In this document: positions 4,719 to 40,395 of the stretch, one piece after another
Layout of the letters: the number at the start of each line of letters is the position of its first letter
How positions within the stretch are numbered: the first letter of the stretch is position 1
Notes under the pieces: generated by a model
Database searches by the model: none
What the model was told of the DNA's origin: nothing
The model's input: the letters and a program-made list of their open reading frames with translations, nothing else
Source: a virus
DNA length: 45,252 bases
Reading direction: 5' to 3' (one strand)
IMG/VR virus record: IMGVR_UViG_3300034358_000012
Location: 1 to 45,252 of that record
Translations under genes and position numbers: made by a program

Positions 4719-4743
4719 CTACAAGCAATAGCAATTAAACTAC

Positions 4744-4772
4744 TTGACATACCTTGTGCTGCTCTCTACCAT
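4744..4772 (+). promoter_or_regulatory. Sigma70-type promoter before the replication module
   Basis: A perfect TTGACA (4744-4749), a 17-base spacer and TACCAT (4767-4772) lie between two genes and about 36 bases before the ATG at 4808. Upstream, CTACAAGCAAT repeats a stretch of promoter P2. This is the best consensus promoter on the plus strand, so the nuclease/SSB module may be transcribed by host polymerase alone. Confidence 0.65.
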
Positions 4773-4807
4773 CTGCGGCACACCTTAACCGAAAAGGAAC
4801 TTGCAAC

Positions 4808-9609: not shown

Positions 9610-9912
9610 ATGTCAGAACAAATAACTTGGACACACGTTGATAAGCTAGTACGCAAGATGCACGACGATCTAGGAATGCGGCCTATCGGCCTTACTGATG
9701 CGGAAGTGACGCACGCGTTTATTCAGTGGTTAATGCGACGTAGCAAGGAGATCCAGCACGATTCCGGACGCTTGGAACAACGCGCCGATATGCTAGAGAT
9801 CGAGCTTAGCAAATTGCGTAACGCTCCGAAGTCGAAGACCAAACAGCGCTTGGCGAAGCTCGAGGAGCAAGTATCTGAAATGCAACAGAGGCTCGAGCGC
9901 AACTGCATATGA
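9610..9912 (+). CDS. Coiled-coil protein upstream of polymerase
   Basis: A 100-residue protein; AAGGAG precedes the ATG. Residues about 52-98 form a long coiled coil (LEQRADMLEIELSKL, then LAKLEEQVSEMQQRLE). It overlaps the polymerase exonuclease gene by four bases. No known family. Confidence 0.65.
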   Translation: MSEQITWTHVDKLVRKMHDDLGMRPIGLTDAEVTHAFIQWLMRRSKEIQHDSGRLEQRADMLEIELSKLRNAPKSKTKQRLAKLEEQVSEMQQRLERNCI

Positions 9913-10982
9913 ACCTCGACAAGTGCATTTTCCTCGACACGGAAACCTTCTGCGAAACGCCGATCAACAACGGCACGCACCGTTATGCAGAAGGCGCCGA
10001 GATCATCATGTGGCAGTGGGCGGTCGGCGATGGGCCTGTGATCATTCGCGACGGGGATGAAGACATAAGCGACTTGCTCGCGCTCTTAGAGGACGAAAGT
10101 TATGAAGTGGTCATCCACAATTCTGCGTTTGATCGGAATGTCATCCGACACGCAACCGGAATAGTTATCCCCGTTGATCGAGTCTTCGACACCATGGTCT
10201 GCGCAATGGCTCACAGCTTGCCAGGGGCGCTCGGCACACTATGTTCCATTCTTGGCGTCGCCACCGATAAAGCCAAAGACAAGGAAGGTAGAACGTGGAT
10301 CTCCCTTTTCTGCAAGCCGCAGCCCAAGGGTCGCAAGATACTCCGTGCTACGAAGCACACCCACCCGGTCGAGTGGCAGCGCTTCCGCGACTACGGCGGC
10401 CTTGACATCGAGGCGATGCGCGAGATCTACAAAAAGCTGCCTCGCTGGAACTACCGGGGCGCAGAACGCGAACTATGGATGCTCGACCAGAAGATCAACG
10501 AACGCGGCGTGCTGATGGACCTGGACTTAGCGCACGCTGCGATCAGAGCTTCGGATCGTGCACAGAAGATCCACGCGGCCGACGCAGTGCGTTTGACCGA
10601 TGGCGCCGTGACCAGTGCCAACCAGCGCGACAAGATGCTGGAGCACATCCTGGAGGCTTACGGCGTCGGACTCCCCGATCTGCAGATCAGTACGCTGGAG
10701 CGCCGCATCGATGATCCGGATTTGCCGGTTGAGTTGCGCGAACTGCTGGCAGTTCGGCTGCAGGCCAGCAAGACCAGTGTTTCGAAGTACAAACGCGTTC
10801 TGAACGGGGTTAGTGCTGACGGCAGGCTGCGAGGGCTTCTAGCGTTCTGTGGCGCGTTGCGCACGGGACGGTGGGCGGGTCGCCTATGGCAGCCGCAGAA
10901 CCTAGCTAGACCTACGATCAAGAACAAAGAAATAGAACTGTGGATTGAAGCCCTTAAAAATGACGCGGAAGACCTTGTATGA
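9909..10982 (+). CDS. Family A DNA polymerase, N-terminal part (3'-5' exonuclease and thumb)
   Basis: A 357-residue protein. LDTET (Asp10, Glu12) is the Exo I motif of DnaQ-like proofreading domains, and VIHNSAFDRNVI fits Exo II. The part from about residue 180 (GAERELWMLDQKINERGVLM) is the thumb of phage Pol I enzymes. Residues 318-335 (TGRWAGRLWQPQNLAR) are the motif that precedes the palm. The protein stops just before motif A, which appears in the separate gene at 12134. In related phage enzymes known to me these parts lie in one chain. The stop overlaps the ATG of the inserted methyltransferase (GTATGACC). Confidence 0.88.
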   Translation: MNLDKCIFLDTETFCETPINNGTHRYAEGAEIIMWQWAVGDGPVIIRDGDEDISDLLALLEDESYEVVIHNSAFDRNVIRHATGIVIPVDRVFDTMVCAMAHSLPGALGTLCSILGVATDKAKDKEGRTWISLFCKPQPKGRKILRATKHTHPVEWQRFRDYGGLDIEAMREIYKKLPRWNYRGAERELWMLDQKINERGVLMDLDLAHAAIRASDRAQKIHAADAVRLTDGAVTSANQRDKMLEHILEAYGVGLPDLQISTLERRIDDPDLPVELRELLAVRLQASKTSVSKYKRVLNGVSADGRLRGLLAFCGALRTGRWAGRLWQPQNLARPTIKNKEIELWIEALKNDAEDLV

Positions 10983-12100
10983 CCGCTTATTATAACGAGT
11001 TTGACCCCTACGCAGCCCAGTGGCTGCGCAACCTTATTGCTGCCGGGCACATCGCGCCGGGCATCGTAGACGAACGGAGCATTGAAGATGTCACACCCGC
11101 AGACCTTGCCGGATTTACCCAGTGCCATTTCTTTGCCGGGATCGGTGTCTGGAGCCTCGCTTTGCGAAAAGCCGGATGGCCTGATGATCGCCCAGTATGG
11201 ACCGGTAGCTGCCCATGTCAGCCTTTCAGCGCGGCAGGCGCTGGAGCTGGGTTTGCGGACCCAAGGCACCTTTGGCCAAGCTTCGCCTGGCTCATCGGCC
11301 AGTGCAAACCTCCAGTCCTCTTTGGAGAGCAAGTTGCGAGCAAGGCTGTCGAGCCTTGGGTCGACCTTGTACACGCTGACATGGAAGCCTTGGACTACGC
11401 CTTCGGGGTCGTCCCGTTTCCGTCTGCGGGCGTCGGTGCGCCGCATATCCGAGACAGATTGTTCTGGGTGGCCGACTCCAACATGCAATGCCAAGAATCA
11501 GCCGGAGACGCAAAGAGGGCTGGAAACTCTAGCAGGCATGTGCAAGTTAACCGCCTGGCCGACACCGACCGTTGGCAATGCGATGGGGTCGCAGAGTTGC
11601 GCGGGGATGAGTGCAACAGGAAAAATGCCGGATGGGCGGAAGGTTTCTGTCAGCCTGAATCATGTGGCGACGTTCGCGGACTGGCCAACGCCGATGGCGG
11701 GGACGCCGGCGCAGAACGGCAACAACGCGGCGGGGAACAACGATTCCAGCCGCAAGACGGTGGACGTGGTGGCCTGGAACCTGGGCGTGTGGACGACGCC
11801 GCAGGCTCACGACACCAGTGGCCGGTCGAAAACCCAGAAGGCGATCCACGGGACCAAACACGGCTGCGCCTGTCTGGTGAGGGACACGGACAAGATCAAC
11901 ACGGACCAGCCGGCCCGACTAACGGCTTCTGGGCAGATGCTGACTGGCTCAGCTGCAGGGATGGAAAGTGGCGGCCAGTTGAACCCGGCACATTCCCGCT
12001 GGCTCATGGGGCTGCCTCCCGAGTGGGACGATTGCGCGCCTATGGAAACGCTATCAATGCTGAAGCGGCGCACGAATTCATCGCAGCGTACCTGGCGTGA
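10979..12100 (+). CDS. C5-cytosine DNA methyltransferase inserted between polymerase parts
   Basis: A 373-residue protein with the C5-methyltransferase motifs in order: I ([12 protein letters not shown], 51-62, SAM binding), IV ([12 protein letters not shown], 76-87, catalytic Cys80), VI (GEQV, 116-119), VIII (IRDRLFWVA, 157-165), a variable target-recognition region (about 166-310) and X ([11 protein letters not shown], 351-361). The variable region contains repeated LADTD/LANAD-type segments. It methylates cytosine in DNA, most likely phage DNA, to resist host restriction. No cognate nuclease is seen. It starts inside the stop of the polymerase N-part. Nearly its whole length also carries a second open frame (11088-12137). 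Confidence 0.9.
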
Positions 12101-12137
12101 AATTGCCGACGACTATCTGTACGGGGATCTCGTATGA
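11088..12137 (+). CDS. Overprinted frame on the methyltransferase gene
   Basis: A 349-residue frame shifted relative to the methyltransferase and overlapping it by over 1,000 bases. The ATG at 11088 has GGAG eight bases upstream, a fair ribosome-binding site. The product is rich in Ser, Thr and Pro, holds repeated WPTP segments and ends with [20 protein letters not shown]. Similar WPTP...[11 protein letters not shown] proteins are, to my knowledge, often predicted beside phage cytosine methyltransferases, without a known function. Its stop overlaps the ATG of the polymerase C-part, so translation of this frame could deliver ribosomes to that gene. It could also be a by-product of the repeated methyltransferase sequence. 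Confidence 0.55.
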
Positions 12138-13126
12138 CCACGGTTATGGAAGCCTGCAGCAGCGCCACACGCGGCTGTGTGATCGCGCCCAAAGGTAAGA
12201 AGCTGGTAGTGGCCGACTTGAGCAACATCGAGGGTCGCAAGCTCGCTTGGCTGGCCGGCGAAGAGTGGAAGCTTCAAGCGTTCCGCGACTTCGACGCCGG
12301 CCAAGGGTTCGACCTATACAAACTTGCCTACGCGAAAGCGTTCGGCATCGATCCTGCCGACGTGGACGGTGACATGCGCCAGATCGGCAAGACGATGGAA
12401 CTCGCATTGGGCTACGCCGGCGGCGTAGGTGCGTTCATTACCTTTTCGCTCGCGTTTAACATCGACCTAGAAGCAATGGCCGATAAGGCGATCAACGCGA
12501 TTCCTGATAGCACTTTGCACGAGGCTAAAGACTTCCTTGAATGGCAATTGAGTAAAGGCAAAAGTCAATACGGGCTTAGCGATTCAGCGTTCATCGTCTG
12601 CGAAGCTTTCAAACGCCTGTGGCGTGAAGCGCATCCGAACACTGTCAGTTACTGGAAGGAGCTGGAGAACGCTTGCCGCAACGCGATCAACAATCCAGGT
12701 CAAACGCTGACCTGCCGCCGCCACAAGATCCGCCGCGATGGCGCATGGCTTCGTGTGATGCTGCCGAGCGGCCGTTACCTGTGCTACCCATCACCCCGCG
12801 TCGAAGACGACGGGCAGATCACTTACATGGGCATCAACCAGTACAGCCGCAAGTGGGAACGGCTGCGGACCTACTCCGGCAAGCTGGCGGAAAACGTGAC
12901 GCAGGCCAGTGCGCGGGATGTATTGGCCTATCGCATGCCGGATATCGAGAAAGCCGGTTATGAAATCGTTCTGACCGTCCACGATGAAATAATCAGCGAA
13001 GCGCCGGACACCGACGAGTACACGCACGAACACCTGGCCGAACTGATGTCCGCCGGTTGCGACTGGACAGAAGGCTTACCGCTAGCCGCCGCCGGCTTCG
13101 AAGCGTATCGCTACCGGAAAGGTTGA
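12134..13126 (+). CDS. Family A DNA polymerase, C-terminal part (palm and fingers)
   Basis: A 330-residue protein holding all three polymerase motifs: A ([11 protein letters not shown], Asp28 and Glu33), B ([16 protein letters not shown], Arg82, Lys86, Tyr94) and C (VHDEI, His283-Asp284-Glu285). It therefore has both catalytic aspartates but no exonuclease and no thumb, which are supplied by the gene at 9909. The first residues ([12 protein letters not shown]) match the loop just before motif A in intact phage enzymes. The ATG overlaps the stop of the overprinted frame. An active enzyme probably needs association of the two chains. Confidence 0.9.
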
Positions 13127-14013: not shown

Positions 14014-15400
14014 GTATCGGCCCCACAAATACCAAGATCTAATCATGTCGGCGATCCACGCGACCAAGCGAATCGCTGTGTGGGCCGGGATGGGCCTCGG
14101 CAAGTCTGTAAGCACGGCCACGGCTTTGGAAGACCTGTCGCTAACCGAGGATGTCTACCCGGTCTTGATCGTCGCTCCATTGCGCGTAGCGCGTACCACC
14201 TGGCCGCAGGAGTACCAGAAGTGGAACCACCTTAAACATCGCCGGGTTGTGACGATCTGCGGCGCGCTAAAGGATCGACAAGCGGCTTTGCGCATGAAGG
14301 CCGATGTCTACACCGTCAACTTCGAGCAACTGGAATGGCTGGTCGAGCACTTCGGCGACAAATGGCCGTTCCGCACCGTGATAGTCGACGAAGCGACCAA
14401 GTTGAAGGGCTTCCGGCTGCGCCAGGGTACGCGCCGCGCCAAAGCCCTGGCTCGAGTTGCGCATACCAAGATCAAGCGGATCATTCTGTTGACGGGTACG
14501 CCCAGTCCTAACGGGCTGCAAGACCTTTGGGGGCAGATGTGGTTCGTGGATAAGGGCGATCGCCTCGGCCGCACCTACGACGCCTTTAAGCAACGCTGGT
14601 TCCGCGCTTCGCATACCGGGTTCGGGGTAGAGGCGACTGACCAAGCACAAGAGCAGATCCAGAAAGCACTGGGCGACGTGTGTATCACGATCGACGCTGC
14701 GGACTGGTTCGACCTCAAAGAGCCAATCGTAAACGTGATCCGCGTAGAGCTGCCGCCGGCCGCGCGAGTCCTCTACAAGAATATGGAAAAGCAAATGTTC
14801 ATGGACTTGGAGGGCTCGCAGATCGAGGCGCTGAACGCGGCTGCGAAGACACAGAAGTGTTTGCAGATCGCTTCAGGCGCTGCGTATGTAGAGGGCGGAC
14901 ATCAGTGGAAGAAGATTCACGACGAGAAGCTGAACGCACTGGAGGAGATCCTAGAGGAAGCTGCCGGTATGCCGGTCCTTGTGGCCTACAACTTCAAGAG
15001 CGATCTAGCGCGGCTCCTAGCGCGTTTCCCACAAGGCCGACACCTGGACAAGAAGCCAGAGACGATCGACGCGTGGAACCGCGGAGAAATCCCGATCATG
15101 TTCGCCCACCCGGCCAGTGCGGGGCACGGTCTTAACCTGCAGGACGGGGGCAACATTCTGGTGTTCTTCAGTGTGAATTGGAATCTTGAAGAACATCAAC
15201 AGATCATCGAGCGTAACGGTCCTGTGCGCCAGTTGCAGGCCGGGCACAACCGTCCTGTGTTCCATCATTTCATCCTGGCCGCAGACACCGTCGACGAGCT
15301 AGTGCTTGAGCGTCTGCAGACCAAGCGTGAGGTTCAAGAAATCCTATTAAAAGCGATGAAGGACCGCGGTTTTAACCCAATCGAAGAGGATGCAGCGTAA
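14003..15400 (+). CDS. SNF2-family helicase-like ATPase
   Basis: A 465-residue superfamily 2 helicase. Walker A GMGLGKS (29-35), motif II DEAT (129-132), motif III LLTGTPSPNGLQDLW, and a C-terminal lobe ending in NWNLEEHQQIIERNGPVRQ (motif VI arginines) are visible. The start at 14003 keeps the HKYQ Q-motif. Phage SNF2 proteins next to VRR-NUC nucleases are thought to remodel or migrate branched DNA in replication and recombination. It probably works with the VRR-NUC protein. Confidence 0.9.
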   Translation: MAIEYRPHKYQDLIMSAIHATKRIAVWAGMGLGKSVSTATALEDLSLTEDVYPVLIVAPLRVARTTWPQEYQKWNHLKHRRVVTICGALKDRQAALRMKADVYTVNFEQLEWLVEHFGDKWPFRTVIVDEATKLKGFRLRQGTRRAKALARVAHTKIKRIILLTGTPSPNGLQDLWGQMWFVDKGDRLGRTYDAFKQRWFRASHTGFGVEATDQAQEQIQKALGDVCITIDAADWFDLKEPIVNVIRVELPPAARVLYKNMEKQMFMDLEGSQIEALNAAAKTQKCLQIASGAAYVEGGHQWKKIHDEKLNALEEILEEAAGMPVLVAYNFKSDLARLLARFPQGRHLDKKPETIDAWNRGEIPIMFAHPASAGHGLNLQDGGNILVFFSVNWNLEEHQQIIERNGPVRQLQAGHNRPVFHHFILAADTVDELVLERLQTKREVQEILLKAMKDRGFNPIEEDAA

Positions 15401-15891
15401 TGGAGAGAACATGCCCTTTGCATGCTGAAAAATACGAATGGTCTTACGGCCAAGAATCGGGATGCAAAAAGTGCTCCGAAGCTCGGCGAAATTCGCTATC
15501 AAAACAGAAACCTGATTGCCCGGGCACTTGGCATTGCGATAAGCACGGCACCGACAATGACTACCGTGAAGAGTGCGCGCATTGCGTCGTCGCCAGAAAG
15601 CAACAGTCCGGCGAACAGAAAACCGGCGGCAGCGTCGACTATTACAAATGCCACGTCGCCGAGCCAATCGATCCTAATAACCCGCCGTACACCGCCGAAA
15701 GCATCGACATTATCGAAGCACTCGGTATGACCTTTGCGGAAGGCGAAGCGTTTAAAGCGATCTGGCGTACCTGCACTGGCCGCATGGGTGGCGCGGTAAA
15801 GGCGGACAACAAAGCGTTATACAACGCTGAGAAAGTCGAATTCTTCGGCGCTCGCATGGTGCGGGCCGCGAAAAGGAGTGAAGCGGAATGA
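15400..15891 (+). CDS. DUF3310 protein with N-terminal zinc clusters
   Basis: A 163-residue protein. The first 65 residues contain several Cys/His knuckles (CPLHAEKY, CKKCSEAR, WHCDKHG, CAHCVVARK). Residues about 80-150 (YYKCHVAEPIDPN ... IIEALGMTFAEGEAFKAIWR) are DUF3310, the family of T7 gene 1.1-like proteins of unknown function. The fusion to zinc knuckles is notable. It starts in a TAATG overlap with the helicase stop. Confidence 0.8.
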   Translation: MERTCPLHAEKYEWSYGQESGCKKCSEARRNSLSKQKPDCPGTWHCDKHGTDNDYREECAHCVVARKQQSGEQKTGGSVDYYKCHVAEPIDPNNPPYTAESIDIIEALGMTFAEGEAFKAIWRTCTGRMGGAVKADNKALYNAEKVEFFGARMVRAAKRSEAE

Positions 15892-29677: not shown

Positions 29678-30046
29678 CTAGTTCCGATCAACAATCCAAT
29701 CCACGTCGAAGCTGGTGCGGTAAAGCTTCGTTTCCTCATCGCGCATGTCGCCTCGATAGGAGGTGACGTAGGAGTCAAGTTCAATCGCGTACCGAATCGC
29801 TTTTGCCACTGTGGTAGTCGACTGCGTAGTAAGACCGTATACGTCGACTTGGAGGCTGGCGCGGTCCGCGTCAGGCCGGCAGTTCAGCATGTTAAAAGGA
29901 TCGCCGCCGATCCACTGGTAGACGACGTAGGGTTTGGCGACGGTCTGCGGGGCCTGCCCAAATGGAAAAATTCTTGGTTCAGGTGAACCGAGCAGAGCCA
30001 GTACGGCTGCGTCCGCTTTGCAGGTTGTGTAGAACGGTACGTCCAT
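29678..30046 (-). CDS. DUF3168 tail completion protein
   Basis: A 122-residue protein of the DUF3168 family (VAKPYVVYQWIGG, RASLQVDVYG, DEETKLYRTSFDVDW), which act as tail terminators joining tail to head. Its start overlaps the stop of the gp10-like gene (TGATG). Confidence 0.85.
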   Translation of the reverse strand: MDVPFYTTCKADAAVLALLGSPEPRIFPFGQAPQTVAKPYVVYQWIGGDPFNMLNCRPDADRASLQVDVYGLTTQSTTTVAKAIRYAIELDSYVTSYRGDMRDEETKLYRTSFDVDWIVDRN

Positions 30047-30489
30047 CAGTTGAGCCCTAATTTAATGAGCTGGAATTTTGCAGAGGAGAGGAATTCTTGA
30101 AACACGGCCTGTTGGTTCTGCCCAAGCGCATTCCTCATGAAGGGCTGTGCTCGGTTCCGAGACGTGCCTAGCTCGACCCACCACCAGTAAAAAGTGTTTC
30201 CGCCGCGCTGCCCGCGTTTTGTCTTACGCACTCCAACGGAGATCTTTGTAGAACCGGTCTCCGCGAAATATTTCTTGTCTTCCACCAGGGCGATGTTCTT
30301 TGAAATGTCTGGAATGGTAGACGGGTCATCGATCGCACTGGCGCGTTGGATGGCGTCTTTCAACACAATGTCCATGGCGTCTTTAGCCGCCGGAATCACG
30401 ACTTGGCGTTGAAGCTCCTGGGGCAAGGTCTTAAAGATCCTCGACAGCTCTTCAGCGCCGGTAAGCTTGTAAGTGATCCAGTCGGCCAT
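30046..30489 (-). CDS. HK97 gp10-like head-tail/tail completion protein
   Basis: A 147-residue protein; LTGAEELSRIFKTLPQELQR near the start and WWVELGTSRNRAQPFMRNAL match HK97 gp10-type proteins that complete the neck. The ATG at 30489 has GAGGA seven bases upstream; a TTG start at 30528 would enter the terminator region and was rejected. Confidence 0.85.
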   Translation of the reverse strand: MADWITYKLTGAEELSRIFKTLPQELQRQVVIPAAKDAMDIVLKDAIQRASAIDDPSTIPDISKNIALVEDKKYFAETGSTKISVGVRKTKRGQRGGNTFYWWWVELGTSRNRAQPFMRNALGQNQQAVFQEFLSSAKFQLIKLGLN

Positions 30490-30529
30490 ATCGTCGTCCT
30501 CGGTTTGCCGGGAGTTTATCACAGGCAAG

Positions 30530-30557
30530 AAAAAGCCGCCCTAGTAAGGCGGCTTTT
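30530..30557 (-). terminator. Intrinsic terminator after the methyltransferase
   Basis: On the minus strand a ten-pair stem AAAAGCCGCC/GGCGGCTTTT with a seven-base loop is followed by T. It lies 33 bases after the methyltransferase stop and just before the gp10-like gene, so the accessory cassette can end separately from the tail operon. Confidence 0.85.
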
Positions 30558-30589
30558 GGTATCACAGGAAGCATTGACGTAGGAGGATC

Positions 30590-31213
30590 TTACTCTGCGA
30601 CGCGCTTGAAAGCAAACGAAGCGATACCCTCGCGGCCAAGTTCGGTTTCCGCCCAGTTGACTTCCTGGCACTCGAAGCCCTGCTCGCCGCACCAGCGGAT
30701 AAAGCCTTGCAGGCTGAAGTAGTGGATGTGCTCGCCCGGCTTCATGTGCTTCGACTCGACCCACTCACTGGCCGTTTCGCAGATGGGGATCGAGACGAAC
30801 AGCCATTCCTTGACGCGCTCGAGAAGCTTTTCGGGTTCGGGGATATGTTCCAGGCTATCCCAACATGTGATCGCCCTGACTTCCTCCGAGCCGTAGGGAT
30901 CGCGATAGGCGTAAGTGCTCTGCAACCACTTCACCGCGTCCGGGCAAACGTCGTAGCCCATACCTTGCGACTCTTGGACGAAGCGCCCGCCGCCGATACC
31001 GATGTCCACGACCTCGGCCGGATTGAAATACTTCTTGACCAGTTCAACCCGCGCCTTAGTCAGCAGACCGCCAATTTTTGTCGCATCAAGCTTTTGGTAA
31101 TTGGCAAAATACTCGCCACCGTAAAGCATCGCCGGCCGAGTATGGAACCCTTGACCTTTAGACGGAGACCACAGGAAGGTGTCCTCCAGTCCAATCGGTA
31201 AGCTTTGAGTCAT
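30590..31213 (-). CDS. Class I SAM-dependent methyltransferase
   Basis: A 207-residue protein. VVDIGIGGGRFVQE is motif I (SAM binding); CWDSLEHIPEPEKLLE fits motif IV/post-I. The target is not visible: it is neither a DNA-adenine nor a C5 enzyme, and resembles small-molecule, sugar or lipid O-methyltransferases. The ATG at 31213 has AGAGGA nine bases upstream. It overlaps the glycosyltransferase-9-like gene by 56 bases, so the two probably act together. Confidence 0.75.
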   Translation of the reverse strand: MTQSLPIGLEDTFLWSPSKGQGFHTRPAMLYGGEYFANYQKLDATKIGGLLTKARVELVKKYFNPAEVVDIGIGGGRFVQESQGMGYDVCPDAVKWLQSTYAYRDPYGSEEVRAITCWDSLEHIPEPEKLLERVKEWLFVSIPICETASEWVESKHMKPGEHIHYFSLQGFIRWCGEQGFECQEVNWAETELGREGIASFAFKRVAE

Positions 31214-31994
31214 AATCCGAGATCCTCTTGTCGCAGCCATGCTGCTTTAATCTGCACCGGCAAAAGTTGTCCGGCACCGCAAACGTAATTGTACTACCGG
31301 ACGGACAGATTAGCTCCGGTGCGTTAAAGCCGCCTTGGCCGCCGCAGATGATCCATGCGGGAACCTTGGCCGCAAGCGCAGCAGGAACCAGCCAACCGAT
31401 ACCGCCGATCACGGCCGAAGCGTTGGCGACGAGCGACAGCAGTTGTTCGACTGGCAGTTCGCCTTTGTGGTATCGCACATCGGCCGGGTAGTCAGCCGGA
31501 CCTACTAGCCACTCTTGACCATCCTGCAGGTCCGCTACCGAGATCACCTTGTAGCCGCGTAGCCGAGCTTCCCAAACCCCCCGATAGATGTACTCAGGAT
31601 CAGGGTTCCGGGTATCGGCTCGCCACTCGCTACGCACCGTAGCGGGCCTAACGACAACGTATTTACCCTGCTCAGGGGATGGCGGAAGCGGTGGTAGGTC
31701 GAACGCACCGGGTGCAACGCCGAAGCTTGCCGTCATGCCGGGGATGATGCCTTCGGCGCCATAGCGGATCTGTCGGGTAGGTTGGCGCGTCGGCGGCATT
31801 ACCCAATCAGCATGGCGCGCGATGTTCTTCGCTTGGGTGCGCAATGTGGTTTGCGGACGGATGAAGTGGACGCCGGGAATGTCTGAATAGACTTCCGGCC
31901 AGGGGGTATCGAGGTAAACCGGTTTAGGCAAAGCTTTTATGAAGGCGCGTTGATAAACGTTATCACCTAAGCCTTTCATAGAATGAATGATCAT
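31158..31994 (-). CDS. Glycosyltransferase family 9-like protein
   Basis: A 278-residue protein. MKGLGDNVYQRAFIKAL (residues 6-22) is the N-terminal glycine-rich loop seen in heptosyltransferases and related enzymes; SAVIGGIGWLVPAALAAKVP with ICGG is the donor-binding site of the C-terminal half. The C-terminus has CRCRLKQHGC. It is smaller than host WaaC/F (about 320). It may modify a sugar on the virion or host surface; substrate unknown. It is next to a methyltransferase and near an MptE-like protein. Confidence 0.65.
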   Translation of the reverse strand: MIIHSMKGLGDNVYQRAFIKALPKPVYLDTPWPEVYSDIPGVHFIRPQTTLRTQAKNIARHADWVMPPTRQPTRQIRYGAEGIIPGMTASFGVAPGAFDLPPLPPSPEQGKYVVVRPATVRSEWRADTRNPDPEYIYRGVWEARLRGYKVISVADLQDGQEWLVGPADYPADVRYHKGELPVEQLLSLVANASAVIGGIGWLVPAALAAKVPAWIICGGQGGFNAPELICPSGSTITFAVPDNFCRCRLKQHGCDKRISDYDSKLTDWTGGHLPVVSV

Positions 31995-32155
31995 ACGCCG
32001 CTGAACCGGACGTCAGGACCGGCTTTAAACTTGGCGGCTTCGGTGACAATCAGAGCTAGCCGCAGCAGGCCGGAAATATTCAAACGTTTCGTGGGGTAAG
32101 GGTAGATAGCTCGATCGTACGTTACCAACTGGAAAGTTTTCTCTTTCAGGTCCAT
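31991..32155 (-). CDS. Small hypothetical protein
   Basis: A 54-residue protein; GGAG lies eight bases before the ATG at 32155. A longer reading upstream would run through a terminator and a structured RNA and was rejected. It ends in an ATGA overlap with the glycosyltransferase-like gene, so they are likely co-translated. No domain recognised. Confidence 0.6.
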   Translation of the reverse strand: MDLKEKTFQLVTYDRAIYPYPTKRLNISGLLRLALIVTEAAKFKAGPDVRFSGV

Positions 32156-32170
32156 GTTCAATCTCCACTT

Positions 32171-32196
32171 AAAAAGAAGCCCGCTTAGGGGCGGGC
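32171..32196 (-). terminator. Intrinsic terminator downstream of the tRNA-like RNA
   Basis: On the minus strand GCCCGC/GCGGGC forms a six-pair stem with loop CCCTAA followed by TTCTTTTT. It lies 60 bases after the tRNA-like element and directly before the ribosome-binding site of the 54-residue protein, so RNA from the non-coding stretch would end here. Confidence 0.8.
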
Positions 32197-32256
32197 CAAG
32201 GGTCTGCACGGAGTAGATTGGTGCAACGGCCGGGCACTCCCAACCTCGTTTCAATC

Positions 32257-32359
32257 GCACCAAGCATGTAGGATCTGTGCGGAGTCGAACCGCGTTGCAG
32301 GCTAAACCTTTCGGCCCGTACCCCGCTCTACCATCCTCGGCAGATCCTACGCTTGGTGC
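32257..32359 (-). ncRNA. tRNA-like structured RNA with extended stem
   Basis: On the minus strand a 77-base core has a perfect seven-pair acceptor-type stem (GGATCTG/CAGATCC), a D-loop-like GATGGTAGAG, a CGGGC/GCCTG stem and a canonical T-loop in GCGGTTCGACTCCGC. The anticodon loop is too long and no amino acid can be assigned; there is no CCA. The stem continues outward as TA, G/C and then GCACCAAGC/GCTTGGTGC, about 19 pairs with one small bulge. So it is either a decayed tRNA or a phage RNA mimic. Confidence 0.45.
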
Positions 32360-32637
32360 AACTATTCCGCATGTGCGGGCTGCGACGGGCAAACTTCTCT
32401 AGACTTGCCATGCTTTCGCGGTCGGTGGCGTTGGTTGATCAGAATTCTTTGTACGGTCGGTGCTGATCTCCGACTTGACGACGATAGGCGCGCTGGTGGT
32501 GTCGCCTCGTTTTATAAATCACCGGGAGCCTAACCATACTCATCTCGGCCCCTACACCCGCACCGTATCGCTACACCGGGTGATCTCTCGTTCGTCTGAT
32601 TAGAAGGTCAACCCCTTCACTTCGTACAACCCGAACT

Positions 32638-33198
32638 CTAGTCACTCGCATCACAAGTGTCAACAACCTTTTGCAACTCTTTTTCCAGCATGCCCAAACT
32701 GTATGCCGTCAGCGCTGTGTCTCGCGAGCAGTTTACCACGCTTTCCCGCTGCGCCAACCGGGCGTGCTGTTTCGCCCATTCGCGGCACCGGATCTCGTCA
32801 GGGTTTTTAGTGTCCGGGTGATCCCCATGCCAATGGCTGCCGTTCTCTGTCGTACAGTCGAAGCCGAGCAATAACACCTTGTCCGCCCCTAAGCTGAAAG
32901 CTAGCTCTATGGCACGGAGTCCGGAGTTATAAGGCCCGTATGCAGTGTGAAGGTTCAGAGCGTGCTTAGCGGACGCCTGGCGGGTACACGTCCATCGCTT
33001 AGGGCCGTCGGGCACTTGGCTGACATTCGCATCCCACCATGCGAGATCACCTGCGTAAAGGTGATTGCACCATGGGGCTAGCTGCCAAGAGTTGTTCACA
33101 GCGATTGTGGGGAGTCCTGACGCGCGCACCAGTTCGCAGTCGTGCGCGTTGAGGCTCGGGCCGGAGGCGATGCAGACGAAGGTTTTAGAGAGGCTCAA
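32638..33198 (-). CDS. MptE/DUF115-like Rossmann-fold protein
   Basis: A 186-residue protein with CIASGPSLNAHD at residues 9-20 and DKVLLLGFDCTTENGSHWHG (about 109-128). The GPSL loop and the later LLGFD strand are typical for the MptE/DUF115 group, often labelled phage glycosyltransferase or morphogenetic protein without proof. The only available start is TTG at 33198, because a stop codon lies two codons upstream. It overlaps the gene before it by 14 bases. A role in surface sugar modification is possible because a GT9-like gene follows. Confidence 0.6.
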   Translation of the reverse strand: MSLSKTFVCIASGPSLNAHDCELVRASGLPTIAVNNSWQLAPWCNHLYAGDLAWWDANVSQVPDGPKRWTCTRQASAKHALNLHTAYGPYNSGLRAIELAFSLGADKVLLLGFDCTTENGSHWHGDHPDTKNPDEIRCREWAKQHARLAQRESVVNCSRDTALTAYSLGMLEKELQKVVDTCDASD

Positions 33199-33373
33199 AC
33201 GTCACATTCTCGAGAACGACATCCTCGAACAGTGCCTCGCCATTCTCGGCGCGTAATGGCTCCCTGAATTTACGGCATTCTCCGGTTTCGGTATCGACTC
33301 GGATCACTTTGTTGATCTCTACGCCATTAGAAAAGACCCTACCGCGGTCACCTTTCTCGACATCGTAAATCAT
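33185..33373 (-). CDS. Small protein after head-closure gene
   Basis: A 62-residue protein, beta-rich (GRVFSNGVEINKVIRVDTET), beginning four bases after the head-closure stop. Its start MIYDVEKGDRG follows directly, and it overlaps the MptE-like gene. No family recognised; possibly a minor virion protein. Confidence 0.6.
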   Translation of the reverse strand: MIYDVEKGDRGRVFSNGVEINKVIRVDTETGECRKFREPLRAENGEALFEDVVLENVTFEPL

Positions 33374-33376
33374 TGT

Positions 33377-33715
33377 TTAGCCCTCATTGACGCCACGCGA
33401 GCAGGGTGCAGAAACATAGTCACGCCCGCTTTCCTGATCGGGCAGCCACGCGTGAACGTTGTAAATATCGCCGTTATGCAAAATGCGTTGCTTGGCATTC
33501 AGGCCGGGGCGCTGGCGGATCACAATGCGCGCGATGATCTCGGACTGAATCGCCGCAGCGGCCAGGAATTCCCGACCACTGGCCGGAGCAATGCGGGCAG
33601 GGACGTTGGTGAAAACCGTTACCCATGACTCTGTAAAGCCGCCAGTGTCGGGATCGCGGACTTCTACCCAATCCTGAATATCGATGCGGTGGCGGTACTG
33701 GCCGGCGCGGCTCAT
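33377..33715 (-). CDS. Head-closure / head-tail adaptor protein
   Basis: A 112-residue protein of the SPP1 gp16/HK97 head-closure type: YRHRIDIQDWVEVRDPDTGG, ARIAPASGREFLAA and ILHNGDIYNV. It closes the portal after packaging and receives the tail. Start overlaps the connector stop (TGATG). Confidence 0.88.
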   Translation of the reverse strand: MSRAGQYRHRIDIQDWVEVRDPDTGGFTESWVTVFTNVPARIAPASGREFLAAAAIQSEIIARIVIRQRPGLNAKQRILHNGDIYNVHAWLPDQESGRDYVSAPCSRGVNEG

Positions 33716-34089
33716 CAGCGTAGCGCCGGATCGCGTAAGGCATAAAGCAATGCCGTTACGGGTTTTGGTAAATAGCCCTGGGCGAAAGCCTGATCCGGGT
33801 TCTCGTCCCGATCTTTGTACAGGAAGCCAATCTGCAGCAACGTGGCGGCCTGCACAGCGTACTTCACAATCTTATCGCCGGAACTGTCGACGACGTAAAC
33901 AGGATCGCCGGAGCTATCGAGGATCGGATCGTCGTTGCTGTCGCGCTCTACCTCGTAAGGGCTCGCGCTCTTCAGATAGTTCTTCACTGCCTCGGAGGAC
34001 GCGCCGATATACGCCTTGATCAAGGTGTCGTCTAGATCGTGATCCATGTTCAGATGCTGTTTCGCCCGGACGAGCGTGACGTACATCAT
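33715..34089 (-). CDS. Head-tail connector (HK97 gp6-like)
   Basis: A 124-residue protein; YVTLVRAKQHLNMDHDLDDT and IKAYIGASSEAVKNYL are marks of the gp6/gp15 connector family. It forms the ring below the portal. ATGA overlap with the virion protein before it. Confidence 0.88.
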   Translation of the reverse strand: MMYVTLVRAKQHLNMDHDLDDTLIKAYIGASSEAVKNYLKSASPYEVERDSNDDPILDSSGDPVYVVDSSGDKIVKYAVQAATLLQIGFLYKDRDENPDQAFAQGYLPKPVTALLYALRDPALR

Positions 34090-34988
34090 AGCTTGACCCC
34101 TTTAGCCGGGTCGAAGGTGCTCGCGTTCTCGCGAAGGTCTTTGCCATTCCGGCCGGCCTTCACGCAAAGCGTCCACGCATCACTAGAGCCGGGCTTGTCA
34201 GTGTTCTCGGCTTTGGTCGAAGTCCACTGGCTACCGGCCCATGTCACGTTGTCGTGGGCGTCGTAGGCTTGCTCCTCGCGGAACACGCCTTTGTAGATCT
34301 GGATCGGCAGAGCAAACTTCTGCGCGACTTCCTGGCCGCTAGACTTCATCAGCTTAACCGAGAACTCCCGGTCGCCGTCCTGCGTGATGCTCACACCGTC
34401 GATACCGTCCACGATGCATTCCCAGCCGCGCATGCCATGGGTGCGCTCGTAAGACTTCCACAGGCCGCCGCGGTGAGCGGCATAAGTGCCGCGCGGATAC
34501 TGCTTCGCTTCCTCGATCGTCGGCAGGATCTCTACGTCTATAGCGTCGCGGCCGTCTTCAGCCTGACGCACTTCCGGTACGACGATCAGCGCGGCGGCTT
34601 CGCTCGCAATCGCTTTCAGGTCAATCACAGGAAGCCCAGGAACTTTAACTAGGGCGGCCACTGCTTCGAGGTCTACTGGGTCGGCGTCTTTGCCGTCCTT
34701 CACTTCGGGCAGTACGATCAGAGCCGCTGCCGCTTTGGCCAGGGCTTCCAGGTCGACCGGCTCAGCGTCTTTGCCGTTACGGACTTCGGGAAGCTGGACG
34801 CGTTTAGCAATAGCTTCTAGATCAATGGCCTCAGGTTTCGGCACTTCGTCGAGGCGTTTCGCTAGGATGTTATTTGCTTCGAGCAATTGCTCTATTTCTG
34901 CCCTCAACGGGCCGACAGCCTTCGCCACCGCGGTGGCAATAACCGGCGCGAGGAATTCGGCTTGCGCTTCAAGTTCACGCAGGTTCAT
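34086..34988 (-). CDS. Repeat-bearing virion protein with carbohydrate-binding-like end
   Basis: A 300-residue protein placed between portal and connector. Residues 1-45 are helical. Residues about 50-150 hold a repeated unit VDLEAxA...LPEVxxGKDADP (at least three copies). Residues about 230-285 (YKGVFREEQAYDAHDNVTWA, QWTSTKAENTDKPG) look like a small carbohydrate-binding module of the type found on fibres. It may be a head fibre or decoration protein binding cell-surface or environmental glycans; that is inference. Confidence 0.65.
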   Translation of the reverse strand: MNLRELEAQAEFLAPVIATAVAKAVGPLRAEIEQLLEANNILAKRLDEVPKPEAIDLEAIAKRVQLPEVRNGKDAEPVDLEALAKAAAALIVLPEVKDGKDADPVDLEAVAALVKVPGLPVIDLKAIASEAAALIVVPEVRQAEDGRDAIDVEILPTIEEAKQYPRGTYAAHRGGLWKSYERTHGMRGWECIVDGIDGVSITQDGDREFSVKLMKSSGQEVAQKFALPIQIYKGVFREEQAYDAHDNVTWAGSQWTSTKAENTDKPGSSDAWTLCVKAGRNGKDLRENASTFDPAKGVKL

Positions 34989-36339
34989 TAGCGAGCCTCT
35001 TTTCGATCAGCAGAGCGAGCATTTTCGCGCTGTCTTGGATTTGTTCGTCGGTTGGTTCTGCCGGCGCGGCCTCGGGTGTAGCTGCGGGTTGCGCCGTGCC
35101 GAATGGGTCGGCCTGAGCGTCACGTTTAGCCAAGGCAGCCAAGGAGTAGTTCTGCTGTTGCATGTAAACCGTATCGCCGCCTTCTACTGGCGAAAGGTTA
35201 AGCTTAGCCATGGCGATGTTCGGAGGCATGATACCGCCTTTAACAGCAGCGGACAGTGTTTCAACGAGTTTGCCCATGTCCATACGCAACAGACCTTCGA
35301 TGTCCAGCTCTACGCCGTATCGATCCGGCAATGCTAAACCGTCGTCCATGCAAGCTTCGTACTCTTCTGCCAAAACCTGGATGCAGTCGGAGTAATACTT
35401 CTGGTTTTCTTGCTCTGCCGTGGTCCCGGTGGCCGCGATCGTAACCCCGACCTTTGACGGAGGAACGTGGAACGCTGTGCAGATCATTTCTGCGGTTAGC
35501 TTGAACTGTTCGATCAACTGCGAATCCGTAGCAGACATTTTCATCTGTTGGAACTTCAAATCGTCGCCGACCACGGCGACCTTGCCGGCATTTTGCCCGG
35601 TATAGTTCGAGTCCCAGTGCGCTTTGAGCCGTGCTGCAGTCTCGTCGCTGATAGCGCCAGGGGCACTCAGGATGCCGCCAGGGCGGGCGCCATTCTCGAA
35701 GAAGGTCGAGCTATCGTTCTGCATTTTCAACGACTGACAGGCGGCTAGGGCGCACGCATATAGCGGCGAGATACCTACCAGGGGGTGGAACAGGCAGTTC
35801 ATCCGATCGTGGATAATTTCTGACGCCGGAACGGTGACGCCCGCAGAGATATCGTTCAGGTCGTCGCCGTTGCACTGGTAATAAACATCACCGTTCTCCG
35901 CGACGAGTACAGTCACTTTGTCCGGGTCGAGGATGTAGATACCCGTCACTACACCGCGCTGGTCTCGTTGCTTCAAACCGTAGGCATTGCCCTTGGTCAA
36001 CTTGCTGGTCTGCCACCACTGCTTGAACTGGATATGGTTCTGGTAATTGTTTGGCTTTTTCAGCACGGGGGAAAACGAAGGACTAGAAGTTTCCTTCCAA
36101 ATACCGTTGGCATCCAGTTGCATAAGTCGTTGGCGAAGTTTGCCGATGTCGTTCGCGATGAGCGTGACACAGGCGTACACCGCGTAATGCGCCAACACGG
36201 TTGGATTGCGCCACTCTAGGTTAGCTTGCCACGCTCCGGTAAAGGGTTCTCGGATTATGGGCAACCATCCTCCGCCTTGCGGCGAGGGAGGTGCCATCGG
36301 CGCTCGCTTGAAGGTAAGCTCTAGGCCGAATATACGCAT
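34975..36339 (-). CDS. Portal protein, HK97 family
   Basis: A 454-residue portal protein; VLAHYAVYACVTLIANDIGKL near the start, GNAYGLKQRDQRGVVTGIY, HPLVGISPLYACALA and FHVPPSKVGV are family signatures. It forms the dodecameric ring for DNA entry and interacts with TerL. Start in a TAATG overlap with the small head protein. Confidence 0.94.
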   Translation of the reverse strand: MRIFGLELTFKRAPMAPPSPQGGGWLPIIREPFTGAWQANLEWRNPTVLAHYAVYACVTLIANDIGKLRQRLMQLDANGIWKETSSPSFSPVLKKPNNYQNHIQFKQWWQTSKLTKGNAYGLKQRDQRGVVTGIYILDPDKVTVLVAENGDVYYQCNGDDLNDISAGVTVPASEIIHDRMNCLFHPLVGISPLYACALAACQSLKMQNDSSTFFENGARPGGILSAPGAISDETAARLKAHWDSNYTGQNAGKVAVVGDDLKFQQMKMSATDSQLIEQFKLTAEMICTAFHVPPSKVGVTIAATGTTAEQENQKYYSDCIQVLAEEYEACMDDGLALPDRYGVELDIEGLLRMDMGKLVETLSAAVKGGIMPPNIAMAKLNLSPVEGGDTVYMQQQNYSLAALAKRDAQADPFGTAQPAATPEAAPAEPTDEQIQDSAKMLALLIEKRLANEPA

Positions 36340-36635
36340 TAGGCGAGATCCTGATCCGCGATAACCGCTTCCACGTCGGATTTCTTGATCCGGCCGTCCT
36401 TACCTGTGCCAACTACTTTATCCAGGTCCACGCCATGCTCTTTAGCGAACTCGATAACTGCGTCAGAAGCGCGCGGTTCTTCCGCTGCAGGAGGTGACCC
36501 TGCGGTCAACATACGAGTGTTATAACCGTCGTCTGGATAAGTACCGTGACCCATTTTGCGCAAAATCTCAGCGTAGCGGCGCGGCATTTCGATCGCCTTT
36601 CCGCCTTTACCATACGTAAATTTAACTTTCGACAT
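36339..36635 (-). CDS. Small head protein with E3-binding-like domain
   Basis: A 98-residue protein. Residues about 56-94 (ASDAVIEFAKEHGVDLDKV then VGTGKDGRIKKSDVEAVI) match the peripheral-subunit-binding (E3-binding) fold of dehydrogenase E2 enzymes almost motif for motif. The first half is a short phage-specific part. Position between capsid and portal suggests a structural or assembly role. The fold may serve as a protein-binding module. Confidence 0.7.
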   Translation of the reverse strand: MSKVKFTYGKGGKAIEMPRRYAEILRKMGHGTYPDDGYNTRMLTAGSPPAAEEPRASDAVIEFAKEHGVDLDKVVGTGKDGRIKKSDVEAVIADQDLA

Positions 36636-36671
36636 AATGCATACCTCTGATTTAACGCGATACTAGCACAT

Positions 36672-36702
36672 AAAAATATGGCGGCACATTGGCCGCCATA
36701 TT
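36672..36702 (-). terminator. Intrinsic terminator after the capsid gene
   Basis: AATATGGCGGC and GCCGCCATATT pair over 11 bases with a six-base loop; on the minus strand TTTT follows. It lies just after the protease-capsid stop and before the small head protein gene, allowing extra capsid mRNA relative to the portal. Confidence 0.85.
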
Positions 36703-36720
36703 CAGTTTACCGCGTCGGTC

Positions 36721-38676
36721 TTACGACCAGCTAACGCCCGACAGGTAGGAAACGGCCTGTGGACGGCGCTTTTGCCACCGCACATATCTCTCGGCACGCA
36801 CGGCCAGTTGGTTAGTCTGGAACATGCTGACGAGCTGCGCAGCAGTAGGGGTGGAAGTGGCTGCCGCATCATCCAGGAAGATTGTCGCTTCGCGGGAAAT
36901 GTCGATGTTCACTTGACCGTCATCCGCCAGGTAGATCTCGGAAGCGAAGGCCAGGATGAACAGCGAACCGCTGGAATCCGAAGGGACGTAGTTGCTGATG
37001 ATGATCGGCGTACCGTCGAGATCACCAACACCGTTCACCCGCACACCTGGGAACTCACGAGTACCGAGTGGGTTACGCAGGAGCGACAGTGCACGAGCGG
37101 TCTTCGCGTCGGTGATGTAGACCGCGCTGCCGGTAGGCAGGTTGGTGTTGTCAGCGACAGCCCACAGAGCGGCGATGTCAGCGCGGATGCCATCAGCGTC
37201 AGTACCGGTCGAAGGGATCGGAGTGACGCCGTTGGTGATCGAAGCTGGCGATTCCGAAGCACCGGTGCCGGCTGCCTTCAGTGGATCGACGAAGTCTTCG
37301 TCCATTCTTTCGATTACAGCGTCGGCCAGGTCGTCGCGGGTTAGCTGAACGATGGCTGGATCGCTGAAGCGTTCCAGTTCTTCGGTCACTACCGAGATCG
37401 CGGCGATTTTCGCCCACTTCATAGTCACAGCATCGTAACCGGCAGCCGTTACCGGCTTGCGATACCCTTCCCCTACCCACTGGGCGCGGCCTGCAGCGGT
37501 CTTGCCTGGGATACGCGAGTTGAAGGGGACTCGGCGCAGCGCCGGGATACCGTTCGTACCGAACTGACCGACGATGGTTTTCGGACGCAGGAACTCGATG
37601 AATTCAGCGGACAGGTTTTGGTAGTCGACCAGGTTGCCGGCCCAGGTTGGGCTGGTAGTGGTGCCTGCGGCTACGGCTGCTTTCATTACGGATTGCAGAC
37701 GAACGTCGTCACCGAATTTGTGTTCGGCGAAAGCCTTGGCGCTGGTTGGGTCGCCTTTACCGGCATACATCGCCAGGGCGAACTTGGCGAAGCCAATGCC
37801 GGGTTCTTCGTTCTTCAGCGACTTCACGACCGCAGGCGCACGGTTACGCTCTTGCATGCCGGAGGTATCAACTACTGGTTTAGCGTTGGCGATGCTGGAT
37901 TTTTCCATCACTTCCAAGCGCTTGATGTGAGTCTCGGTTGCGGTGATTTCGTCAGACAGAGTATCGAACTCTTCCGATTCCGCTTCGTTCAGGGTGCGGC
38001 CTTCTGCGCTGGTCAACAGCTCAGTTTGACGCGCGGATTTTTGCTCAAGGGCATCCTTGAATGCTTTGATCTGTTCTGCGAATTTCATGTCTTGGCCCTC
38101 CTCGGGCTTCGGAACTACAGGAATGTGCTTTACAACAGGTGCCGAAGCGCCGGCAGGTTTACCTAGACGAACTACAGTGAAGTCCTTTTTGCCTGACGCG
38201 ACAGGAGCCCCAATGTCGAACGACTTGATACTGGTGATTGTCGCTTCCGCGTTTGCGGGAATCGTGACTAGCGACAATTCATAAACTTCTGTCTTCAGGA
38301 AGCGAGTACCCCAACTTCCCTTGATCGGCTCGGAGCCCATGTCGCGGAAACCGATCGACACAGCGCGAACCAGGCCGGCTTTAACCGACTGCCAAGCCTC
38401 TTCGATCCGGTTGAACAGACCTACAGGCTCCGTAACTTCAGCGAAGGTCGCGGTAAAGGGAACGCCTTTCGTGGTCGGCTTGCCGAACTCTACGAGGCCG
38501 ACGGGCTGCTGGTGATCATGCTGCCACAGGAGCGGGAGCGGGTTTTTGTACTGGACTCCGAGCGGTTCCACGATGTCGCCTACGCGATCAACCCCGGGTG
38601 TTGTCGCCCAGCCGGTGATGGTCCGCGTTTCAGCGTTAACCGCTTTTACGTCTAGAACGCTATAGGCTCTGTTCAT
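36721..38676 (-). CDS. Fused prohead protease and HK97-fold major capsid protein
   Basis: A 651-residue fusion. Residues about 1-160 are an HK97-type (S78) prohead protease: GDIVEPLGVQYKNPLPLLWQ, AVSIGFRDMGSE with the serine, and VYELSLVTIPANAEAT. Residues about 195-285 are a helical scaffold (delta) region, and 290-651 the major capsid protein (FIEFLRPKTIVGQFG, RIPGKTAAGRAQWVGEGY, YVRWQKRRPQAV). In most phages protease and capsid are two genes. The protease must cut itself out after shell assembly. Confidence 0.9.
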   Translation of the reverse strand: MNRAYSVLDVKAVNAETRTITGWATTPGVDRVGDIVEPLGVQYKNPLPLLWQHDHQQPVGLVEFGKPTTKGVPFTATFAEVTEPVGLFNRIEEAWQSVKAGLVRAVSIGFRDMGSEPIKGSWGTRFLKTEVYELSLVTIPANAEATITSIKSFDIGAPVASGKKDFTVVRLGKPAGASAPVVKHIPVVPKPEEGQDMKFAEQIKAFKDALEQKSARQTELLTSAEGRTLNEAESEEFDTLSDEITATETHIKRLEVMEKSSIANAKPVVDTSGMQERNRAPAVVKSLKNEEPGIGFAKFALAMYAGKGDPTSAKAFAEHKFGDDVRLQSVMKAAVAAGTTTSPTWAGNLVDYQNLSAEFIEFLRPKTIVGQFGTNGIPALRRVPFNSRIPGKTAAGRAQWVGEGYRKPVTAAGYDAVTMKWAKIAAISVVTEELERFSDPAIVQLTRDDLADAVIERMDEDFVDPLKAAGTGASESPASITNGVTPIPSTGTDADGIRADIAALWAVADNTNLPTGSAVYITDAKTARALSLLRNPLGTREFPGVRVNGVGDLDGTPIIISNYVPSDSSGSLFILAFASEIYLADDGQVNIDISREATIFLDDAAATSTPTAAQLVSMFQTNQLAVRAERYVRWQKRRPQAVSYLSGVSWS

Positions 38677-38721
38677 GTATACAGCTCCGGTAAATTACGC
38701 GCATTAAAGCACAGATATTTG

Positions 38722-40395
38722 TCAAAGGAAAAACATCTGATGCTTACGATGCGCCGCGGGCGGGTTAAGTGCCATCAGCGACACGGCGTTGAACAGCGCC
38801 ATCACCGGGTCAATCTTTGCCGAGCCGGAAGCCTGTTTGGTGATTAGGATCGAGTTTGCCCGGGGCTCAACGCGGCAGTTGCTTACCGCCCAGTTCATCA
38901 ACGGTTGCACTGCGTGCTCCATGTCACCGGCCGCTAAACGGCGTTCAGTCGTCTTTATAGCGCCGCCGAGCTTCCAGCCCTGGCTGATCCCGACGATCTT
39001 GTCTTCAGGGATATCGCGCGCTACCAGTTCGTCAAAGATCGCACCGATGCCGACCGGGTCGACGCCGATTTTGTCTAGTAGTCCCGATTCGTAAATCTGC
39101 TCAACGATGTCGCAAACTTCGGTCACGTCGTCGCCTATGCGCTTCACCATCACAAGGTCGCCGTTGTCACTGAAGTCCTGCATCTTGGATGCTTCTTTCA
39201 AGTTCCGCTGCAGCGCGGAAGGGTGCGCCCACGCTTTAGACCACGAGAGCCACTTACCGCCGCCAGTTAGGCGCCCCACGATCGACAGACCTAGCAAGTC
39301 GTCAAGGCCGCCGCCGTCGATCCCTACGTCGATCACTTCGCACATCTCAAGCATGAACGGCAATGTGATCCGTTCGTTGTTCTGCGCGAGCCAGTAATCC
39401 GCCGCCGCCCATCGGTCAGTGCGCAGCGCCATGCCGATTTCGATGTTCAGGTATTTTGACAGGACGATCAGCATTTCGTGAGGCCCGGTCTCCTTGGCCC
39501 GTCGAATCTCCCTCGCGATGAAGTCTATGCTCGCCGACTTCCCTAAGTTCGGGTTGGTCATATGGAAGTTAGCCGGGTCGAGATACGCTTCGCTTTCGAT
39601 CATCGACTTAGGGAATTCATACAGGATCGGCAGGAACTGAGGGTCGTCTATTTCACCGTCGCGCACTTTCCGAGCGTACATCAGCTTCGAGGCGAACACC
39701 CCTGCAGGCGGTTCGTCGGACTGAGTAGTCAGGTAGAGCACGAAACCCTCAGGACGCGAAGCCAGGCCGCCGGTCGCTTCCACGAGCATTTTTGCCGCGT
39801 TCGGGTTTTTACCGAAAAGGTGGATCTCATCGACCAGGATAACCGCAGCTTTCTTGCCGCCGACGGTGTTCGTGTCCGCCGCTACTACTTTCAACGTGGC
39901 GCCCGTGCCGAGGTGGGTAATGGTTCGGATGTGATCCTGAACCTGCATCATGCTGTCCAGGGTTGGATCTTTCTTCACCATGTCGCGGGCCGGGGCGAAG
40001 GCGTTATCGGCGACTTCCTTGGTCGGCGCCAGGATGATGAACTCTGCCGACTGCCTCCAGTTCAGTTTCAGCACTGTGAGCATGATGCTCGCCGCTTCTG
40101 TCGACTTGGCATTCTTCTTGCTGATCAGGACGAACGCTTCCCGGATTAGCTGAATGCCGGTCTCAGGGTCGTAGGCGCCGAAAACAGCGTTGGCGACATC
40201 TTCCGCCCATGTAGAACCGATGGCGCCGATCGTTTGTTGCCCGTCGCCCACGTCTACGATCTTGAGCTTATGGCGGAACTCTCTGGCTTCCCTAGCCGAC
40301 TCCGGAAACAGTGGCTCGAATGGAACGAGGCTGCGCCCTTCGATAATTCGCTGTTCCCAATCGGGGCAGGCAGTCGTATACGCAGGCGCTCCCAT
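38722..40395 (-). CDS. terL: Terminase large subunit
   Basis: A 557-residue protein of the HK97-type large terminases. Walker A is SKKNAKST (92-99), Walker B is VILVDE (185-190) with Glu190 as catalytic base; CEVIDVGIDGGGLDD starts the RNase H-like nuclease. It pumps DNA and cuts ends. Coupled to TerS (TGATG). With the HNH gene nearby, a cos-type cut is likely. Confidence 0.94.
   Translation of the reverse strand: MGAPAYTTACPDWEQRIIEGRSLVPFEPLFPESAREAREFRHKLKIVDVGDGQQTIGAIGSTWAEDVANAVFGAYDPETGIQLIREAFVLISKKNAKSTEAASIMLTVLKLNWRQSAEFIILAPTKEVADNAFAPARDMVKKDPTLDSMMQVQDHIRTITHLGTGATLKVVAADTNTVGGKKAAVILVDEIHLFGKNPNAAKMLVEATGGLASRPEGFVLYLTTQSDEPPAGVFASKLMYARKVRDGEIDDPQFLPILYEFPKSMIESEAYLDPANFHMTNPNLGKSASIDFIAREIRRAKETGPHEMLIVLSKYLNIEIGMALRTDRWAAADYWLAQNNERITLPFMLEMCEVIDVGIDGGGLDDLLGLSIVGRLTGGGKWLSWSKAWAHPSALQRNLKEASKMQDFSDNGDLVMVKRIGDDVTEVCDIVEQIYESGLLDKIGVDPVGIGAIFDELVARDIPEDKIVGISQGWKLGGAIKTTERRLAAGDMEHAVQPLMNWAVSNCRVEPRANSILITKQASGSAKIDPVMALFNAVSLMALNPPAAHRKHQMFFL

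Follow-up and report, generated by a model that had tools for sequence, protein, structure and literature searches.

A candidate "RNA moron": a mosaic array of structured RNA modules between two late genes of a siphovirus

A stretch of 482 nucleotides, located between two late genes of the 45-kb viral DNA considered here as a whole (the window), is best explained, although tentatively, as an "RNA moron", i.e. an autonomous unit delivering trans-acting RNAs, in which a tRNA-like payload would most plausibly be a decoy. The existence of the array and its mosaic nature are well supported by sequence, as are a predicted promoter, a terminator, a covarying module, termed X, a covarying carrier stem and the exchange of modules among relatives. 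It is highly probable that the array consists of trans-acting RNA modules; a tRNA-decoy or counter-defence role for the payload found in the window is put forward with some doubt. The elements recognized are listed below in the order in which they would be transcribed.

32635-32663, minus strand: predicted sigma-70 promoter TTGACA-N17-TAGAGT, matching 10 of 12 consensus positions; -35 box at 32663-32658, -10 box at 32640-32635
32472-32602, minus strand: module X, a structured RNA of about 131 nt with six helices, an invariant GCGA-capped hairpin and an invariant 16-nt internal loop
32456-32474, minus strand: 3' hairpin GTCGG-AGATCAGCA-CCGAC after module X, with related hairpins at this place in many homologues
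32346-32440, minus strand: hinge CAACCAACGCC and module B, with a GAAA hairpin, a GGCAAG/TTTGCC hairpin and a CCGCACATGCGG hairpin
32341-32361, minus strand: 5' strand of the carrier stem, TTGCACCAAGCGTAGGATCTG, pairing with 32255-32277
32271-32347, minus strand: tRNA-like payload of 77 nt, with a 7-bp acceptor, the D-loop GGTAGAGC (32325-32332), a GAAA-capped middle arm (32305-32316) and a T-arm (32279-32293)
32255-32277, minus strand: 3' strand of the carrier stem, CAGATCCTACATGCTTGGTGCGA, pairing with 32341-32361
32218-32226, minus strand: third strand, TTGCACCAA, repeating the 5' stem strand in direct orientation, at a position conserved in relatives
32171-32197, minus strand: intrinsic terminator GGCCCGCCCCTAAGCGGGCTTCTTTTT, a GC hairpin followed by a T-run

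The window derives from a siphovirus record, that of a soil phage, and its minus strand carries D3/PAJU2-like genes for head and tail; within its 30001-40000 stretch, no named phage record was matched at the DNA level. The phage has genes of its own for DNA polymerase, helicase and primase, and the proteins scanned include no integrase; on these grounds it looks virulent. The DNA polymerase is encoded on the plus strand (9909-13126) by two ORFs, 9909-10982 and 12134-13126, which match adjoining parts of phrog_17 and have a DNA methyltransferase ORF between them. The protein encoded at 15400-15891, also on the plus strand, matches several unknown families and, in its C-terminal half, the 3'-phosphatase/5'-polynucleotide kinase family phrog_7063, with no match in Pfam.

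The region 32156-32637 had originally been described as 482 bases free of genes, and this holds: read on the minus strand, it contains only short mechanical ORFs. One of these, a 34-aa ORF at 32439-32543, was evaluated as a small coding gene and discarded, since it overlies the covarying RNA X. The predicted promoter ties for the best sigma-70 match anywhere in the window and reaches into the upstream gene, the TAG stop codon of that gene supplying the first three letters of the -10 box. The promoter is kept in all the fetched relatives examined (32 of 32), in addition to the window, the -10 box being mostly TARAGT, with AATACT in two of them. The terminator noted after the structured RNA was found as well, at 32178-32197, within the stretch listed above, and the arrays of relatives likewise end in a GC hairpin and a T-run. 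The predicted transcript, from promoter to terminator, would be about 455 nt long. The array has its own predicted promoter and terminator between late genes, as expected for a moron-type cassette; its assignment to the late operon is correct as to position only, the unit having its own sigma-70 promoter. This promoter, modules X and B and the variability among relatives had all escaped the original prediction.

Eighty related loci were found, of which the 32 nearest usable ones, together with the window, provided a set of 33 arrays, spanning roughly 180 to 660 nt. The ends of the upstream genes share a median identity of 75.5%, and the median shared fraction of the arrays is 0; among the 120 pairs above 80% identity in the upstream gene ends, 96 share less than 20% of the array. 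Variable content is thus found between conserved flanks. Module B is 95-100% identical in several relatives and absent from others, its neighbours differ from phage to phage, and in one relative (L030) its GGCAA/TTGCC pairing is replaced by GGTGA/TCACC. Hairpins of the GTCGG...CCGAC type also occur in arrays lacking X, such as L009 and L034. H-type pseudoknots with an A-rich loop, none of which was seen in the window, are found in the arrays of relatives, and their stems co-change (GAGG/CCTC to GTGG/CCAC, CTCGGA to CCGGGA, CGAG/CTCG to AGAG/CTCT). At gathering score, no known Rfam family (GOLLD, ROOL and group I/II introns included) was detected apart from tRNA, matched in relatives.

T-arms are concentrated within the arrays, where 20 were found in 12.2 kb (1.64/kb, a count taking in near-identical modules common to related arrays), against 0.026/kb in the flanks, an enrichment of about 64-fold, with none in antisense. 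Some of the sibling tRNA-like modules have near-normal acceptor ends and retain CCA and an anticodon. In L006 and L041 the anticodon arm is GAAA-capped, while L155 and L028 contain tRNA-like payloads inside the carrier stem, with a tetraloop instead of the anticodon loop; for L155 the cloverleaf is the best fold. In some relatives, such as L138 and L157, a 236-aa HNH-endonuclease-like protein, recognized by eye from a DHVRP motif and Cys pairs, is encoded between the array and a glycosyltransferase-like gene; it could drive the exchange of array content.

Module X is a conserved structured RNA. In the window it scores 147 bits with the covariance model R1, for which a brief calibration makes E-values rough. 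Covariation in the alignment reaches 0.444, against 0.132 for shuffled alignments and at most 0.094, and near zero, for slid controls; 95% of cells are paired, 18 pairs show double changes, and double-change cells number 102, against 29 after shuffling. The aligned sequences had been picked by two exact motifs, but helices 1, 2 and 5, which hold most of the variation, do not contain these motifs. About 60 positions are invariant, and Rfam 15 contains no match to the module.

Among the close relatives searched, module X is present in the window alone; those lacking it still keep promoter and terminator. A degenerate pattern recovered it from 30 other viral stretches, among them D3-like prophage contigs and contigs as long as 103 kb. 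Further occurrences are in the N4-like Klebsiella phage phi1_146050 and, as a diverged copy scoring 45 bits, in the P22-like Escherichia phage Huey. Depending on the phage, its neighbours are tail genes, terminase, holin or RNA ligase, and because of these differences the module is not tied to any one of them. In other phages it lies inside or beside tRNA arrays, tRNA genes being located near X in several contigs. A simple pattern search found no promoter or terminator around X in other phages, and a search with strict filters and no positive control detected it in none of 144 Pseudomonas-related bacterial genomes.

Some of these locations deserve a description. In Huey the copy (1375-1539) lies between a Q-type antitermination gene and the holin gene, and in L106 X (about 4730-4870) lies between the gene in the Q position and holin. 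Of 5426 complete E. coli genomes, 1208 contain matches to parts of the Huey region, and the matches listed carry no annotated feature. Within L124 (963-1505), the X pattern match is followed after 77 nt by an RNA ligase gene (phrog_548), which suggests a link with RNA or tRNA repair. In phi1_146050, short ORFs for hypothetical proteins, on the opposite strand, cover X and its flank (1148-1632); two of the called genes overlap the module, and these ORFs are probably spurious.

The carrier stem, TTGCACCA...TGGTGCAATTG, had been described as a stem of about 19 pairs: the long stem is real, and its length is corrected to 21 pairs with one 2-nt bulge. Compensatory changes, proposed as a check of the original prediction, are found here: across 13 relatives 97.7% of the stem is paired, covariation is 0.478 against 0.157 after shuffling, and 10 pairs show double changes. 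Roughly ten unrelated types of payload are held by this stem, those outside the tRNA-like group making up most of them. The third strand, TTGCACC, could pair with the same 3' strand; as the complement is flanked by TTGCACC twice, two competing helices may form, and the layout (32341-32361, 32255-32277 and 32218-32226, minus strand) is retained in relatives.

Within the carrier stem of the window, the 77-base core was correctly recognized as tRNA-like from its acceptor, D-loop and T-loop signatures. All 7 acceptor pairs are formed, the D-loop and 3' D-stem sequence GGTAGAGC is present in the arm where GGTA was originally noted, the D-stem being broken, and the T-arm, GCGG-TTCGACT-CCGC, has 4 of 5 pairs and a canonical loop of the TTCRA type. 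The anticodon arm is abnormal, as had been remarked: in the cloverleaf form a GAAA-capped middle arm replaces it, no 7-nt anticodon loop is found, and the acceptor end lacks CCA and a discriminator end, being followed by TACA, which is paired in the stem. An ordinary tRNA gene was therefore rejected on the absence of a D-stem, anticodon and CCA and on the outcome of searches of the kind suggested at the outset: ARAGORN found no gene in the region, and Rfam gave no tRNA, the best match being tRNA-Sec, below threshold at 15.8 against 47 bits.

The 109-nt fold is far more stable than expected (z = -5.95), none of 200 shuffles being as good. With acceptor and T-arm enforced, RNAfold yields three arms, including the GAAA-capped middle one, at -29.1 kcal/mol, in energies which do not include tertiary contacts. 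The best fold of the payload reaches -34.4 kcal/mol, the T-arm has a pairing probability of 0, and the cloverleaf is thus not the favoured fold. Two pattern scans found no homologue of this payload, which appears unique to the window phage. The early reading, which placed a tRNA-like core within the long stem of a structured RNA, is sustained by the covarying stem and by the recurrence of T-arms in sibling arrays. It must be modified in that the region is not one RNA: several modules form an array under a promoter of their own, and the tRNA-like part is an exchangeable payload among them.

Several other explanations were weighed. Chance structure in an ordinary intergenic region would agree with the negative ARAGORN and Rfam results; it is contradicted by the z-score of the fold, by the covariation of X and stem and by the T-arm enrichment, and has almost no probability left. 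The remnants of a tRNA gene cluster, decaying and devoid of present function, would account for the degraded D-stem, the missing anticodon and the near-normal, CCA-bearing tRNAs of some sibling arrays. Such decay is quite improbable, given that stem and X covary under selection, tetraloop caps recur and the promoter is kept in every relative. Equally improbable are base-pairing regulatory RNAs, or sponges, directed to host or phage mRNAs or sRNAs. A promoter and a terminator of their own are typical of sRNA genes, and phage anti-sRNAs such as AgvB do exist, the match to it being weak, sub-threshold and confined to the terminator hairpin; what is conserved, however, consists of folded domains whose loops are invariant and whose stems covary, rather than of exposed seeds, and the payloads are highly paired.

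Two further possibilities concern the transcript itself. Module X might be a cis-acting leader or antiterminator, acting on RNA polymerase to let it read through the terminator and on to the late genes, on the model of the HK022 put RNA. X directly follows the promoter in the window, and elsewhere it lies between Q, in the P22-like phage, or the gene in the Q position, in the D3-like prophage, and holin. The presence of promoter and terminator in close relatives devoid of X, and of X in tRNA arrays, between tail genes and after terminase, argues against this role, which is considered improbable. The tRNA-like and long-stem elements might instead be processing punctuation, i.e. signals for RNase P and RNase III, the functional RNAs being their neighbours X and B. 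The 21-bp stem has the length of an RNase III substrate, and, among the sibling tRNA-like modules, several end in a near-normal acceptor with CCA. In the window the acceptor runs on into the long stem on both sides, leaving 5' leader and 3' trailer paired, which makes a poor RNase P substrate; moreover, the stem alone would suffice for processing, because the payloads it carries are unrelated. Punctuation is thus regarded as unlikely.

According to the preferred explanation, an RNA moron, the unit would run from a host sigma-70 promoter to an intrinsic terminator and would encode several independent structured RNAs and no protein. As the promoter is of the host type, the transcript may be made from early in infection. 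RNase III would open the 21-bp stem and release the modules, which would act in trans on host factors; for X, a trans-acting role is most likely, since its fold is kept in unrelated contexts. The payload would present a tRNA elbow and acceptor helix with neither anticodon nor CCA, and therefore cannot decode; it may occupy a host protein recognizing tRNA bodies, for example a defence effector that attacks tRNAs or an enzyme of tRNA processing. Capture of such a protein is the most likely and most economical function that can be proposed for it, and the quick turnover of payloads fits an arms race. Phage tRNAs protect against retron-Eco7 and PrrC, and alteration of the anticodon abolished this protection (PMC11555353); a decoy without anticodon would hence need a target that is not an anticodon nuclease. 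Against the preferred explanation stand the minimum-energy fold of the payload, which is not the cloverleaf, and the other payloads, most of which are not tRNA-like; no defence system was linked to any array.

More generally, the presence of the same unit, filled with different RNAs, in related phages suggests, with reserve, that phages possess an "RNA cargo slot", possibly used to fool the host: cassettes, running from promoter to terminator, of trans-acting RNAs that fold independently and can be interchanged, whose contents (the uncatalogued, widespread X, pseudoknots, and anticodon-less tRNA mimics on a constant carrier stem) would be the RNA counterpart of anti-defence gene islands. Searches for phage counter-defence have been confined almost wholly to proteins, and stretches without genes are passed over or given spurious ORFs, as probably in phi1_146050. 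If cassettes of this kind carry trans-acting RNAs, annotation lacks an entire layer of the interaction between phage and host. Module X, with its strong covariation and invariant positions in unrelated phages, is a concrete target for structural and functional work, and the constant stem with varied payloads lends itself naturally to use as a scaffold for RNA display.

No description of such arrays was found in the open-licence literature, and an earlier account may exist beyond that scope. Lambdoid morons consist of promoter, cargo and terminator inserted between late genes; unlike them, the unit described here has a cargo of RNA only, in a phage which looks virulent. The stable RNAs C and D of phage T4, which are not tRNAs but are transcribed with phage tRNAs in one unit, are comparable by description; they are not known to be mosaic. 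GOLLD and ROOL (PMC12286853) are likewise complex, phage-linked structured RNAs of unassigned function; the RNAs reported here differ in having no Rfam match and in being modular, with modules of 60-180 nt. Racr RNA anti-CRISPRs (PMC10651486) are small phage ncRNAs, near a predicted promoter, which mimic a host RNA, the CRISPR repeat; the sole repeat-like string in the array, ATTGAAAC at the stem end, is present once and not conserved in relatives, which speaks against a CRISPR-repeat mimic. Phage tRNA clusters, such as those of the N4-like Klebsiella phage KP8 (PMC6950046) and the tRNA-rich regions of T5 and SP15 (PMC11555353), similarly line up small structured RNAs in tandem where genes are absent; CCA-bearing tRNAs occur in some of the sibling arrays, and X lies inside one cluster, in Klebsiella phage phi1_146050. 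Unlike these clusters, the arrays are mostly composed of modules other than decodable tRNAs, namely novel multi-helix RNAs, pseudoknots and a carrier stem with exchangeable payloads.
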